Assembly: GCA_013792005.1 (NCBI GenBank)
Contig: VMSU01000136.1
Coordinates: 1-40,388 of the forward strand
Direction: 5' to 3'
Source: Desulfobulbaceae bacterium
GTDB taxonomy: Bacteria > Desulfobacterota > Desulfobulbia > Desulfobulbales > VMSU01
Length of the DNA: 40,388 nucleotides
Below the pieces are notes generated by a model, which was not told where the DNA came from, made no database searches, and saw only the letters and a program-made list of their open reading frames with translations. The first letter of the stretch is position 1. Each line of letters starts with the position of its first letter. The position numbers and the translations under genes are program-made. Below are positions 1,300-6,377 of the stretch, piece after piece.

Positions 1300-3168
1300 T
1301 CATCGCCAAATGGCTGAATTACGCCGAGACTGGATACTGACCTGAAGGTCGCGGGACACGCTCCACCCTTTTTCATCAGTTGCCGTAACCCTCAACAACA
1401 CGCCCGGGTTAGAAACTGTGTTAAAAGTAGCTGGAGCCACAAAGGAAATCTGTGACCCCTCGCTATTCAAGAATTTAATCACTACTGGTACTCCTGAAAT
1501 CTGCTCCCAACGAAATTGCACGGAAGAACGCATGTCGTCCTTAGTCTGGCTGGCGTTTAGGATGACGGTATCTCCTGGATGATAGACTGCGGAATATGTC
1601 GCGACATGAAGCTCTGGCGACCTGTTCTTGCTTTTAACCGTAATAGTTACAGTCTTGGTTGCTGAATGAAGCTCACCCACCGTAAATCGATACGCAATGG
1701 TGTCTTTGCCACTGAACGAACTCTCTGGCTCATAGACAGAACGACGACCGTTCAACATTTCCAATGTCCCATGCCCGGGGGACTGAACGATATCTACGCC
1801 CACGCCCTGATTGTAAGGCTGCGAATTAGCCTTTTGCCAAATCTTTTCCCACGGGACAACTAAACTCTTACTGATAGTATATGATACATTGCTTGCCGAA
1901 ATCCCCTCCTGCTTTAAGGCAGGCTCCGGCTCAGCAGGCGGAAGGGGTTCCTGTTGAGCAGCATTCATTGGAACCACCGAGGTTGCCGGTGGTTCTGGGA
2001 TCGCGAAGGACTTCTCTCTAGTGATCGTGACCTTGGCAGTAGGACTGAAATGTTTTCCGTTAGTAGCCCGGATAGTAAAGCTGTCCTGCCCCGCAAAATC
2101 AGCCATCGCACTATAAACAAGTACCGGGGCTTGACCAGATATCTGACCATGCTCGGGCATAGACTGAAATTCATACTCCAGGGGCAAATTTTCCGGGTCT
2201 TTACCATCTAGAGTTATTGCCAGTTCAGTGCTCCCCGGAGGCATAACCAAGGTTAGATCAGAGAGCGTCAGCATTCCTGCTGCGCTAGATTCCTGAGGCG
2301 CCACTTCAACAACAGTTGCCGGCGCTTCCTGTGGAGAGACTTCCGGCTCTGGCAATTCCCTCTCCTGGACCACCTTTGCTGGAACTTGCTCAAGCGCCTT
2401 TTTGTCCGCCGTATCCTCCCCTCCTGTAAAAAGAAAAAATCCTACCAAAAGGAGTATAAAAAGAACAACCCCTCCACCAACAGCAAGAAGGCGCTTACGA
2501 TTGGCTAAGAGTTTATTCCATCTGCCTTGCTGAGGCAGGACAGGATCCTTAGCCTCCTCGGTGATAGCGGCAGACACCGCAGCAATAGCTACTTCTTCCG
2601 GAATGGAAACAACTGTCTCTTCATCCAAGAACGACATATTGTCATTCCACCCGCCGCTTGAATCAGGAATATCGGGAATACCAGGGATATCCTCCTCAAG
2701 CTTAAACTCATGATCATCAAAATCGGACGACAAATCGGTCTGGGCGAGGGACGGATCAGCCGTCTCAAAGGTATCAACGAAATCAATATCATCTGTCACA
2801 AAGGACCGTGATTCCTCCCCCCCTGAGTCTGGCTCCGAAAACAACTTGTCAATTTCATCCTGATCCGGATCGAAAAACGGCTGATCCGAAGCTGGGGTGT
2901 CAGCGCCCGCGAGCAAGGCTTCGATATCTGATTGGTCCAGCCCTCCACTGACGACATCATCACTTTTTGACACCGAGGAAGACGGTTCATCCCCAGACAG
3001 CAATGCGTCAATATCCGCCTGACCAAGATCCTCTCCCTCGTTAGAAGAGGGGGGGCTCAAATCATCAGAACCGGAAAGGAGCGCGTCAATATCGGACTGT
3101 CCAAGCTCAGACTCCTTTTCTTCTGAATCCTCTAAATCATCCAGCCAGTCATCTTTTTCTTCAGCCAT
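1300..3168 (-). CDS. Single-pass membrane protein with four FliM/FliN-like motifs and periplasmic Ig/cadherin-like domains
   Basis: 622 residues from the ATG at 3168, preceded by AAGG seven bases upstream; a TTG 27 bases earlier is open but has no better site. The N-terminal ~215 residues are very acidic and hold four copies of a short motif: LGQSDIDALLSG (22-33), LGQADIDALLSG (48-59), LDQSDIEALLAG (77-88) and a weaker PDQDEIDKLFSE (101-112). This resembles the N-terminal 'LSQ-E-IDALL' segment of flagellar switch proteins FliM and FliN/FliY, which in FliM binds phospho-CheY. A basic stretch (NRKRLL) precedes one transmembrane helix at about 227-248, giving an inside acidic tail and an outside C-terminal half. 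The outside half contains two cadherin/Big-like domains ('GQDSFTIRATNG', 'GKDTIAYRFTVG') and a PKD/REJ-like domain ending 'LLRVTATDEKGWSVS'. Last gene of the FlgO-like operon, 27 bp after the preceding stop. The function is not known to me; a role in an envelope-spanning or motility-linked complex is inference. Confidence 0.8.
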   Translation of the reverse strand: MAEEKDDWLDDLEDSEEKESELGQSDIDALLSGSDDLSPPSSNEGEDLGQADIDALLSGDEPSSSVSKSDDVVSGGLDQSDIEALLAGADTPASDQPFFDPDQDEIDKLFSEPDSGGEESRSFVTDDIDFVDTFETADPSLAQTDLSSDFDDHEFKLEEDIPGIPDIPDSSGGWNDNMSFLDEETVVSIPEEVAIAAVSAAITEEAKDPVLPQQGRWNKLLANRKRLLAVGGGVVLFILLLVGFFLFTGGEDTADKKALEQVPAKVVQERELPEPEVSPQEAPATVVEVAPQESSAAGMLTLSDLTLVMPPGSTELAITLDGKDPENLPLEYEFQSMPEHGQISGQAPVLVYSAMADFAGQDSFTIRATNGKHFSPTAKVTITREKSFAIPEPPATSVVPMNAAQQEPLPPAEPEPALKQEGISASNVSYTISKSLVVPWEKIWQKANSQPYNQGVGVDIVQSPGHGTLEMLNGRRSVYEPESSFSGKDTIAYRFTVGELHSATKTVTITVKSKNRSPELHVATYSAVYHPGDTVILNASQTKDDMRSSVQFRWEQISGVPVVIKFLNSEGSQISFVAPATFNTVSNPGVLLRVTATDEKGWSVSRDLQVSIQSRRNSAIWR

Positions 3169-3195
3169 ATCGCCTTGTCCCAGAGATCTGGTCAA

Positions 3196-3741
3196 TTATA
3201 GATGCGTATGCAGAGCACGATAAATAGGCTCGGACATTTCAACAATAACGACATAAGAGGTTCGCTGCCCTGCAGCATTGATCCCGCTCAAATGAACTCT
3301 CAAATAGCCATCAACCTCCAGCAGCACGCCATGCAATTGTTGTTTGATGTCACCCCGGGCTGATCCAAGGTTGTCCTTGGTATCGTTGTTGATCATAACG
3401 ACCATTTGATCGGCAAGAATCACCCCCAATTCAGACTGCTTGTCTTTTTCTGAAAATCCGATGGAGGAAAAAGGAACTACCATGACGACAGAGGGTCCAT
3501 AAAACCCTCGGAATCGTTCCATGGCATTTTCGCAAATCATCGTAATAACATCAGCCAACCCGGAATAATTCTGAAAGCTAGGGTCACCTGCCGGAATGGC
3601 GGTGTCAGACTGGAAGCCCTCTTTGAAATCACCCTCGTCTGCCCAGACCAAGTGCGGTGTCGTGGCCACCAGAACAAGAAAAATCCCAAAAAAAATACCC
3701 CTGGGAAGAATTCGAGAATAAAGAGGACTTATAATGTTCAT
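3196..3741 (-). CDS. Small exported protein of the FlgO-like operon
   Basis: 181 residues. A long N-terminal hydrophobic segment ('GIFFGIFLVLVATTPHLVWA') followed by DEGDF looks like a Sec signal peptide cleaved after VWA. The mature part has the alternating pattern 'VVMVVPFSS', 'SELGVILADQM', 'LHGVLLEVDGYLRVHLSG', 'SYVVIVEM', which resembles the alpha/beta layout of FlgO/LpoB/CsgG-type envelope domains, but no conserved motif lets me name it. Its ATG shares the sequence ATGA with the stop of the upstream FlgO-like gene, so the two are translationally coupled; a GGGAGAGAG stretch lies before the ATG. Probably periplasmic or outer-membrane-associated and part of the same assembly as its neighbours. 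Confidence 0.7.
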   Translation of the reverse strand: MNIISPLYSRILPRGIFFGIFLVLVATTPHLVWADEGDFKEGFQSDTAIPAGDPSFQNYSGLADVITMICENAMERFRGFYGPSVVMVVPFSSIGFSEKDKQSELGVILADQMVVMINNDTKDNLGSARGDIKQQLHGVLLEVDGYLRVHLSGINAAGQRTSYVVIVEMSEPIYRALHTHL

Positions 3742-4511
3742 TTCAGTCTCTCTCCCGGCCCCTTAACCGCAATGGCAAATGGTTCCCGGTCGCCACCACC
3801 CCCTAGCAGGGTGATAAGCTCCTGGTTCAACGGCATATTATAACGCCACGAGGTCACGACCAGTCCGGTTTGCACTGCGATCATCCGCCCCTGAAGGATA
3901 AGGGTCTTACTGGTGTTAGTAAAAGTTGAAACCACGACATAATCAATAGCTGGAGCCTCATTGGCCAATTCGCCGATATTTTGAGATAGGATAAATTCGC
4001 CCGCCTGAGGCACGATAGTGACATCTTTGCCCAATCGTAACTCTTCCACGAGAATGCCGCGGTCAGCCAAATCTGTCAGAAAAAACTCCGCCACCATCCG
4101 CCCAAACTCAGTTTCTCGCTTCAAATCAGAAAGTGGCACGGCAGAGACCACCGCAACCCTGGAGGTCAGGACATGCTGTCCCTCGTCTTTCATCTCATAA
4201 AACACCTTGCCCGCCACTTCTTTTGATAACTCAGAAAAGATATTCTCTATACCATACGACCTAGATAGAGCTGTTCGGGACTGAAGGACTCGACGGTCTC
4301 TTCGAGGCTCTGGCCCGGAAGCTGGCAGGAGAGTCTCGACATCCGTCACAGATGCCTGTTCACGATTGACATGCCGGCCCCCATGATCATTTGACCACGA
4401 CCATGCAGTGGGGATCTCCGCCAGAAAACCCAAGCTCACCACCAACACAGCGACAGATAAGGTTTTACCTTTCTTCATGGAATTCATTACACTCCGTGGC
4501 AGATAATGCAT
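3738..4511 (-). CDS. FlgO-like domain protein, second of a tandem pair
   Basis: 257 residues from an ATG that overlaps the upstream stop as TAATG, implying translational coupling; internal Met-9 has a GGAG close before it and is an alternative start. A signal peptide follows ('KKGKTLSVAVLVVSLGFLAEIPTAWS'-like stretch, no lipobox Cys). The C-terminal ~150 residues have the FlgO-domain layout: 'VAVVSAVPLSDLKRETEFGRM' region, 'FFLTDLADRGILVEELR', 'EFILSQNIGEL', 'YVVVSTFTNTSKTLILQGRM', 'TGLVVTSWRYNMPL'. FlgO in Vibrio is an outer-membrane protein of the flagellar H-ring region; here no other flagellar structural gene is within the window, so the link to flagella is by family only. It is a diverged paralogue of the gene directly upstream and ends with ATGA overlap into the next gene. 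Confidence 0.75.
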   Translation of the reverse strand: MHYLPRSVMNSMKKGKTLSVAVLVVSLGFLAEIPTAWSWSNDHGGRHVNREQASVTDVETLLPASGPEPRRDRRVLQSRTALSRSYGIENIFSELSKEVAGKVFYEMKDEGQHVLTSRVAVVSAVPLSDLKRETEFGRMVAEFFLTDLADRGILVEELRLGKDVTIVPQAGEFILSQNIGELANEAPAIDYVVVSTFTNTSKTLILQGRMIAVQTGLVVTSWRYNMPLNQELITLLGGGGDREPFAIAVKGPGERLK

Positions 4512-5218
4512 TATAGTTCGAGCTGTTTCATCAATGTCATCCCCTGATGACTTGCCGTCGTGAGCACCGCGCTATCAGCAAGCAGCAGGTCTACCTCTTT
4601 GGTCCGAGGAAATACCATGGTGGCGCTCGACAGGAGGACCGCTGTCTTGCTGTCCAAGACCTTGGCATTAACCAAAATATGATTCCCGGCCAAGGTATAG
4701 GTCCCGGTAATCATAGTGCGAGCCCGGACTGTTGAACTAACTTCGTTCATATCACGTGACAATCCATACTCTCCTCGTTTCTCCTGGATCGTAATTGATA
4801 AGCTTTTGCGCACATCAACCACACGATATCCTTCCTGCTGAAACTCGGTCATCAATTGTTCCGAGAGGTATCTGCCAAATGACGATGTCCTGGTCAAATT
4901 ATTGAGATCGACAAAACTTGCCACCGCAATCCCGTCAGCAAGATCCCCGGCGCCAGGATCGGGATCCTCAAGATACGCAAACAACACCATGGCCATCTGT
5001 TGAATTTCAGAGGTAAAGAGTTCTGCGGGATTGGCACCTGCTACGGCAATTTCAGATGCAGAGGAGATGGTTTCGGTTGGTGCTTCTTCGACCGAAACTC
5101 GATTGAGAGAACAACCGAGCAAGACGCTCCCTACAATAGCCGCCAGTACTAAAAATAACGGCCGATATATCAAACAAAGAGGCGATTGCAGTTTTCTGCG
5201 GGTAGGACAACGAGTCAT
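4511..5218 (-). CDS. FlgO-like outer-membrane lipoprotein, first gene of the operon
   Basis: 235 residues, with a type II signal peptide: hydrophobic 'PLFLVLAAIVGSVLLGC' ending in the lipobox LLGC at about residue 36, followed by Ser-Leu, which favours outer-membrane sorting. The rest is a clear FlgO-type domain: 'IAVASFVDLNNLTRTSSFGR', 'YLSEQLMTEFQQEGYRVVDVR', 'GEYGLSRDMNEV', 'ARTMITGTYTLAGNHILVNA', 'VLDSKTAVLLSSATM'. FlgO proteins sit at the outer membrane around the flagellar motor in Vibrio. It is first of four minus-strand genes joined by TAATG and ATGA overlaps. The start is the ATG at 5218; the upstream 180 bp separate it from the divergent gene at 5404 and contain AT-rich sequence including a TATAAT on the minus strand (5278-5273) without a convincing -35. 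Confidence 0.82.
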   Translation of the reverse strand: MTRCPTRRKLQSPLCLIYRPLFLVLAAIVGSVLLGCSLNRVSVEEAPTETISSASEIAVAGANPAELFTSEIQQMAMVLFAYLEDPDPGAGDLADGIAVASFVDLNNLTRTSSFGRYLSEQLMTEFQQEGYRVVDVRKSLSITIQEKRGEYGLSRDMNEVSSTVRARTMITGTYTLAGNHILVNAKVLDSKTAVLLSSATMVFPRTKEVDLLLADSAVLTTASHQGMTLMKQLEL

Positions 5219-5383: not shown

Positions 5384-5403
5384 AAGGGCAGGAGGTGACA
5401 ACC

Positions 5404-5691
5404 ATGCAAATCAATTCCCCGAAAAATTTAAACACCCTATACGGCCCCAATCAAATCGGATCTAAGCCTCAGCCCGAGAAGACCGAACGGGTTCAAACCC
5501 CGGCGCCAGGAACAAAAACTGACTCCGTTTCCATCTCGAATGAGGCCCTTCGCAAACAAGCCGAAACCAAAAAACTTGAAACCTCAACAACTAAAGACAT
5601 TGAACGTTCTCGCCAACAACAAACCCAAACAGCAGCTCCTTCAGCAACAACCAAAAATTTGGCGGCGCAACGAATTGATCTCATGGCCTAA
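5404..5691 (+). CDS. Small protein with FlgM-like N-terminal motif
   Basis: 95 residues from the ATG at 5404, chosen because a strong AGGAGG (5390-5395) ends eight bases before it; an in-frame GTG at 5395 lies inside that site. The sequence is hydrophilic, rich in Gln, Thr and Lys, with 'DSVSISNEALRKQAE' around residues 36-50. That 'VSIS-x-EA' segment is typical of the N-terminal part of FlgM and of several small flagellum-linked proteins. The C-terminal helices of FlgM that bind sigma-28 are not evident, and the tail ends 'AAQRIDLMA'. Divergent from the FlgO-like operon and six bases upstream of the Crp/Fnr gene. An anti-sigma role is only a possibility; hypothetical protein is the safe call. 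Confidence 0.6.
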   Translation: MQINSPKNLNTLYGPNQIGSKPQPEKTERVQTPAPGTKTDSVSISNEALRKQAETKKLETSTTKDIERSRQQQTQTAAPSATTKNLAAQRIDLMA

Positions 5692-5697
5692 CCGCCC

Positions 5698-6377
5698 ATG
5701 AAGATTGAAGAGGCGCTGACAACAATTCCCCTTTTTAAGGGGATGAACCAAGGACAGTTACAGAAACTCACGGCCATAGTTACTGACAAAAATTATGGCC
5801 GCGGGCAATCAATTTTTGCCGAAGGTGATGAGGGGATTGGATTTTACGTTGTAATCAGCGGTAAAGTTAAGATTTACAAACTCTCGTCAGAGGGTAAAGA
5901 GCAAATTCTTCACATCTTCGGAGGCGGTGAACCTTTTGCCGAAGCGGCAGTATTCGTTGGCGCCCGCTTCCCGGCCCATGCTCAAGCCCTTGAAACAAGT
6001 CGCATATTTTTTTCCCCCGCCAAGCCTTCATCCATCTGATTGAGGAAAACCCAGCCCTGGCCATGAACATGATGGCCGCCCTGTCTATGCGCCTCAAAGA
6101 ATTCGCCCACCTGATCGAGTCATTATCGCTCAAAGAGGTTCCAGGGCGATTAGCCGTTCATCTTCTCCTCTTGGCCAACGAACAAGAACGGGATGAGATT
6201 CGCCTTGACCTGACAAAAACCCACCTCGCAAGTCTCCTCGGCACTATCCCTGAAACCCTTTCCCGAATTCTCACCAAAATGGCCAAACTAGGTGTAATTG
6301 CCACCAATGGCCCACTCATCTCCATTCTCGACCGAGACGCCCTTGAGGCAATTGCCTCAGGCGATGAACGACTCTAA
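5698..6377 (+). pseudogene. Crp/Fnr-family regulator interrupted by a one-base frameshift
   Basis: The first frame (5698-6039) encodes the start of a cyclic-nucleotide-binding-like sensor domain ('IPLFKGMNQGQLQKLTAIV', 'IFAEGDEGIGFYVVISGKVKIYKLSSEGKEQIL'), then stops after 'TSRIFFSPAKPSSI'. Shifting back one base in the T7C5 run at 6007-6018 restores the family sequence 'SRIFFFPRQAFIHLIEENPALAMNMM', which continues in the second frame to 6377. The second half has the dimer helix and a winged helix-turn-helix ('LDLTKTHLASLLGTIPETLSRIL'). Together they give about 226 residues, the usual Crp/Fnr length. No N-terminal cysteine cluster as in classical FNR is visible. The break could be a real mutation, a homopolymer error in the assembly, or slippage; the rest is fully conserved, so a recent event or an error is more likely than long decay. 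Confidence 0.85.

Follow-up and report, generated by a model that had tools for sequence, protein, structure and literature searches.

We identified a membrane protein of Desulfobulbaceae that carries a conserved array of FliM-type motifs, is encoded in an operon with FlgO-family proteins and is tied to flagellar genes in its distribution. The gene lies in the 40,388-nucleotide stretch of DNA analysed here (the window), and arrays of the same motif also occur on FliN and FliY proteins of other phyla. We interpret the protein as a flagellar accessory membrane protein that forms a multivalent docking array for phosphorylated CheY (CheY-P) tied to a FlgO-type outer ring, a reading to which we give an even chance.

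The protein, strand and coordinates of the original prediction were correct according to the translation of the open reading frame. The coding span is 1303–3168, with the stop codon at 1300–1302. The ATG at 3168 was preferred over an alternative TTG at 3195 because relatives keep the start MAEEKDDWL. The acidic N-terminal tail, which bears the four FliM-type motifs, is followed by one transmembrane helix and three Ig/cadherin/PKD-like domains (Table 1). The single helix had been predicted and was confirmed by the hydropathy profile and the AlphaFold model, and the predicted C-terminal domain types were borne out by Pfam (Big_9, K319L-like PKD and, weakly, Cadherin_5). The AlphaFold model, based on 29 homologues, consists of a disordered tail with short helices, a long membrane helix and confident beta domains from residue 300, which are cadherin-like according to Foldseek. 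M1, D6, and W8 are invariant among the 29 homologues, and a helix was predicted at residues 10–17, in the DDWLDDL segment. Pfam assigned only the Ig/cadherin/PKD domains; neither an SPOA (FliMN_C) domain nor a FliM middle domain was found in the protein. The N-terminal tail is inferred to lie inside and the C-terminal domains outside; that the cytoplasmic placement of the tail is merely inferred counts against the docking-array reading. An open-ended protein at positions 1–1016 of the window faces the array gene and contains Thr/Pro-rich repeats (TTTTTTAAP) and, after them, a region whose two similar C-terminal stretches end in GEGFWVN.

Table 1. Features of the array gene and its operon (positions in the window).
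Feature	Position	Strand	Basis and remarks
Transmembrane array protein, 622 aa	1300..3168	minus	ORF and translation
DDWLDDL segment, conserved, N-terminal	3133..3153	minus	short helix predicted
FliM-type motif 1, LGQSDIDALLSG	3070..3105	minus	Q24 QSDIDALL; AlphaFold helix 24–32
FliM-type motif 2, LGQADIDALLSG	2992..3027	minus	Q50 QADIDALL; AlphaFold helix 50–57
FliM-type motif 3, LDQSDIEALLAG	2905..2940	minus	Q79 QSDIEALL; AlphaFold helix 79–86
FliM-type motif 4, DPDQDEIDKLFSE	2833..2871	minus	Q103 QDEIDKLF; AlphaFold helix 103–111
Transmembrane helix	2425..2493	minus	hydropathy maximum 2.77 at residue 226; AlphaFold helix 216–248
Ig-like domain (Big_9)	2020..2226	minus	Pfam, best stretch residues 315–383
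Cadherin-like domain	1633..1902	minus	Cadherin_5 weak; second Big_9 stretch; strands in model; Foldseek to cadherins
PKD-like domain	1336..1587	minus	K319L-like_PKD 2.1e-07 (Pfam)
FlgO-family protein 1 (FlgO1), first operon gene	4511..5218	minus	PF17680 4.3e-35; lipobox LLGC
FlgO-family protein 2 (FlgO2)	3738..4511	minus	PF17680 7.8e-23
ORF3, 181 aa, signal peptide and small alpha/beta domain	3196..3741	minus	family kept in operon

The four FliM-like motifs claimed for the acidic tail were confirmed, with approximately 0.01 expected in the shuffled tail. Counted as Q..[IV][DEN].[LIM][LFIM], 226 motifs were present in 55 homologous tails from one order, against 0.25 expected in shuffled tails, and none was found in the 20,091 residues behind the transmembrane helix of these homologues. 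The tails contain 1 to 8 copies, with a single strict match in three of the most diverged homologues, and the spacing is mostly 23–35 residues. The consensus is [ED]LDQ[SDA][DN]ID[AS]L[LF][GS]G. The motif itself, 8–12 residues long, is fixed (I 99%, D 98%, and L 98% of the 226 copies) in linkers that diverge, and motif 4 (DPDQDEIDKLFSE) is the best-conserved copy within the protein's own family. AlphaFold placed the short helices on all four motifs with low to moderate confidence. The tail is acidic, repetitive and predicted to be disordered, and PF17680 can take in non-flagellar proteins. These properties would fit motifs that are generic acidic low complexity without a specific partner, beside proteins whose FlgO-like label describes a fold without flagellar meaning. 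However, the motif excess at fixed positions in fast-changing linkers, the independent occurrence of arrays on five FliN/FliY proteins and the near confinement of strong FlgO matches to flagellated genomes of the class (see below) argue against generic low complexity, which we consider very improbable and already refuted as far as sequence alone permits.

We compared the motifs with the N-terminus of FliM, which is MGDSILSQAEIDALLNG in Escherichia coli and MEQILSQDEVDALLKG in the source genome and 18 relatives, one of them with one extra residue. The array motifs and the EIDAL peptide of FliM share the Q-x-x-[IV]-D-x-L-[LF] core, a short helix and the contact positions. The four array positions conserved at 98–99% among the 226 copies (I, D, L, and L/F) correspond to I11, D12, L14, and L15 of E. 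coli FliM, and the CheY-contact residues of FliM map onto these near-invariant positions. The EIDAL motif of FliM is bound by CheY-P (PMC6946799, PMC9126983); in the complex, FliM D12 forms a salt bridge with CheY K119 and FliM residues 8–15 are helical (PMC7012829), as the array motifs are predicted to be within their disordered tail. The CheY of the source genome is 55% identical to that of E. coli and keeps D57, Y106, and K119. On the other side, the residue at position -1 of the motif is D in the array tails (82%) and S in FliM, which counts against a CheY-P docking array. FliM is a soluble C-ring protein with one copy at its extreme N-terminus, whereas the array protein is a membrane protein with 2–8 copies and no FliM/SPOA domains.

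In a degenerate DNA scan of the 4-Mb source genome, the pattern Q-x-[DE]-[IV]-[DE]-x-L-[LF] matched at 13 sites and its reversed form at 2. The in-frame matches were the FliM N-terminus, the four array motifs, the C-terminus of a CheZ-like protein, a 102-aa protein and matches inside folded enzymes, namely DnaB and one large enzyme. The non-array matches inspected in 24 other genomes were DnaB, RdgB, MltB and the like; those in DnaB, RdgB, and MltB were dropped as chance matches, since they lie inside folded domains. The CheZ-like protein, a 475-aa coil protein, ends in ASQDDIDRLLAELG (contig C234, L157:15695-17122). It has no CheZ match in Pfam, and the label therefore rests on its C-terminus and shape. 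The C-terminal peptide of CheZ binds CheY, and in E. coli this C-terminus (ASQDQVDDLLDSLGF) has Q, V/I, D, L, and L at the intervals found in the array motif, but CheZ is a soluble phosphatase with a single C-terminal copy, unlike the membrane array. CheD-HDOD and PilZ-like genes are located near the gene of the 475-aa protein. The 102-aa protein belongs to an unknown family and bears a FliM-type motif at its end, ITQEEVDALLEG (contig C216, L156:7713-8021).

The main rival ligand to CheY-P is FlhG, a MinD-like ATPase that limits flagellar number. If the array bound FlhG, the protein would serve as a landmark or reservoir governing flagellar place and number, similar to HubP/FimV though unrelated to it. 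HubP/FimV proteins cross the membrane once and extend a long, acidic, repetitive tail into the cytoplasm, an arrangement that the array protein recalls, but the order is opposite (the tail comes first in the array protein), and neither LysM nor the FimV C-terminal TPR domain was found in the array protein with Pfam and NCBIfam. The FliM N-terminus mediates the interaction of FliM/N with FlhG (PMC12826062), and flhG and flhF adjoin cheY in the source genome. The motifs, however, give no preference for FlhG over CheY, and the same motif occurs at the C-terminus of the CheZ-like protein, a position at which the known partner is CheY. Moreover, an operon with FlgO genes suggests an outer ring and not a pole marker. 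We regard the FlhG reading as unlikely. We give even odds that CheY-P is the principal ligand at the motor; the absence of binding data counts against this.

Arrays in other phyla were sought in 84,980 species using two patterns derived from a 7-row alignment of the array family, neither of which contained FliN sequence; a single-protein scan of the genome collection gave no matches, and a 55-row alignment was too diverse. Of the 60 confirmed loci, about 46 encode true homologues, and about a dozen encode unrelated proteins with nothing but the array in common with the family. Five of the latter have a FliN domain (PF01052, E about 1e-21). FliN with arrays was found in three Phycisphaerae records and a SAR324 bacterium (12 copies), and a Lachnospiraceae CheC-FliN (FliY) protein also bears an array. 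EIDAL motifs outside FliM are known from FliY of Bacillus and Campylobacter and from FliN proteins, which share the motif with the array protein and in some cases carry multi-copy arrays but are soluble switch proteins with SPOA/CheC domains. No other independent evidence speaks as strongly for a switch-type motif as these arrays on FliN and FliY. The FliN/FliY arrays consist of 2–12 EIDAL motifs that precede or flank the FliN domain (loci L276, L275, L283, L285, and L273), and no paper describing those of SAR324, Phycisphaerae, or Lachnospiraceae was found.

The scan also returned a Planctomycetota protein with a motif array. Proteins of an Acidobacteriota type contain 9–23 motif copies and a common unknown C-terminal domain (L277:5992-8691, L280:5131-7656, and L278:5998-7290); two of them begin with LSQEEISMLLG and are encoded near PilZ-like genes. 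A Hydrogenedentota protein combines an array, one transmembrane helix and TPRs beside a response-regulator gene (L271:245-3934), the same layout as the array protein built from unrelated domains.

The array gene is the last of an operon on the minus strand (5218 to 1300) with the order FlgO1, FlgO2, ORF3 and array protein. The two FlgO-like neighbours that had been noticed are FlgO proteins by Pfam, with profile scores of 120.8 (FlgO1) and 81.2 bits (FlgO2) against a curated cut-off of 22.6. FlgO1 resembles PDB chains 9yfg/9yds, which are named only "FlgO domain-containing protein" and are present in 58 copies per entry. The proposed operon of FlgO and array genes held, but a third secreted protein, ORF3, sits between them. 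Likewise, the stop/start overlaps ascribed to the operon exist between FlgO1 and FlgO2 (TAATG) and between FlgO2 and ORF3 (ATGA), where they measure one to four bases, but 27 bases separate ORF3 from the ATG of the array gene. ORF3 had no Pfam match. Its model has a pLDDT of 82 overall and above 90 in the core, and Foldseek gave weak matches only, the best meaningful one being LpoB (probability 0.97, TM about 0.4–0.5). A profile comparison of ORF3 with FlgO was merely suggestive (probability 73). ORF3 is suspected to have a divergent FlgO/LpoB-like fold.

Homologues without a FlgO-like neighbour would have spoken against the prediction; FlgO-FlgO-ORF3 precedes the array gene in nearly all neighbourhoods. 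In Vibrio, FlgO contributes to the H-ring, which encircles the L-ring (PMC6375700). The array operon has FlgO in common with the Vibrio H-ring (FlgO, FlgP, and FlgT), but two FlgO proteins, ORF3 and the array protein form a different gene set, and neither FlgP nor FlgT was found in the operon with Pfam. The surroundings of the operon are rpe, an M16 peptidase gene and lgt, with no flagellar or chemotaxis cluster; we judged these downstream neighbours to be housekeeping genes, and the position of the operon among them counts against a role at the motor. A 98-aa protein (5395–5691) is encoded divergently from the operon and has a very weak FlgM-like match (10.7 bits, below the cut-off). Next to it, a CRP/FNR-type regulator (5698–6377) is split into two frames, with the cNMP-binding part at 5698–6039 and the HTH part at 6063–6377, by a frameshift or an assembly error.

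We determined the distribution of the array gene in 219 genomes of the class. A full homologue was present in 63; any match at 1e-15 was obtained in 68, five of which had the Ig domains only. The gene was not found in the searched genomes of the phylum outside the class, and the named records are metagenome-assembled genomes (MAGs) of Desulfurivibrionaceae and Desulfobulbaceae. FliM was present in 167 of the 219 genomes and fell into two score groups, with 64 genomes above 150 bits (or with split pieces of that type) and 103 below 136 bits. The array gene occurred in 61 of the 64 genomes with the first FliM type, in none of the 103 with the second and in 2 of the 52 without FliM (p = 7e-48). 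Within the families holding the first type, 61 genomes had both genes, 3 FliM only, 2 the array gene only and 5 neither (p = 8e-5). Four of the five double losses belong to one family, so the correlation rests on few independent losses, a point against the motor reading. Both genomes with the array gene only have four FlgO genes, as their flagellated kin do, and fliM is therefore probably missing through an assembly gap. The array gene is not essential for flagella, because three flagellated genomes of the clade lack it, and this absence also weighs against the motor reading.

The number of FlgO genes was mostly four in genomes with the array gene, two or three in the three genomes with FliM but without it and mostly one in those with the second FliM type; genomes without flagella had none or weak matches. 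A second FlgO pair lies 11–17 kb from fliM in over fifteen array-gene genomes, which indicates that FlgO is flagellar in these genomes. The flagellar association of the FlgO matches is based on co-occurrence only, as seen in this second pair and in strong matches following fliM across the 219 genomes.

The array might alternatively bind C-ring proteins or a non-flagellar receiver-domain protein and serve another envelope system, for example in surface sensing. A receiver protein from a different system is a possible ligand because the Acidobacteriota arrays adjoin PilZ-like genes, and the Planctomycetota array, the Hydrogenedentota array by a response-regulator gene and the distance of the operon from flagellar clusters point the same way. 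Against this, all 63 array-gene genomes had flagellar genes, either FliM or a complete set of FlgO genes, and the array gene was in none of the 50 class genomes without FliM outside that set. We regard such a ligand as doubtful.

A CheY-P docking array at the motor is a likely mechanism because CheY-P binds the FliM EIDAL motif, FlhG acts through the FliM N-terminus and FlgO belongs to the Vibrio H-ring. The periplasmic Ig/cadherin/PKD domains would rest on, or extend towards, a ring of FlgO type built by the other operon products, and this contact would position the protein around the motor. Each protein would hang 2–8 EIDAL-type helical peptides, like the one at the FliM N-terminus, into the cytoplasm, where they would bind CheY-P in the groove used by FliM and CheZ. 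Each peptide would be weak, but many together could keep CheY-P pooled near the switch, with a raised local concentration or buffering as the result. The original prediction, that the protein presents switch- or CheY-binding peptides on one side of the membrane and reaches a FlgO-like layer on the other, is supported. The data show the array and its conservation, the operon, the link with flagellar genes, the FliN/FliY arrays and, by prediction, the topology. That the protein binds CheY-P or switch proteins, sits at the motor, touches FlgO or affects switching is inferred.

The original prediction named no described counterpart, and the open-licence literature yielded neither a protein of this layout nor papers on tandem CheY-binding or EIDAL arrays. 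The parts are of known kinds (EIDAL motif, FlgO, and Ig-like domains), and it is their combination that was not found there. We classify the protein as a new family of flagellar accessory proteins in which a known docking motif takes on a novel form, multivalent and transmembrane. Somewhat more tentatively, it may be a new motor part, a trans-envelope protein with a FlgO-type ring that surrounds the C-ring with CheY-P docking peptides to concentrate or buffer the signal, multi-copy EIDAL arrays being a general device that arose on FliN, FliY and several other proteins, membrane-bound or soluble, in different phyla.

CheY-P is normally thought to diffuse to the motor and to be caught by one peptide per FliM. 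The array protein may link the chemotaxis signal to the outer parts of the motor, because it is inherited with FlgO-type genes and only in bacteria with flagellar genes. If the proposal is true, bacteria would have a novel means of adjusting switching sensitivity, namely a membrane-tethered multivalent array by the C-ring that is genetically tied to a ring in the outer membrane. With FlhG as the ligand, the array would instead offer a novel means of counting and placing flagella. The FliN/FliY arrays of other phyla suggest a wider, so far overlooked design.
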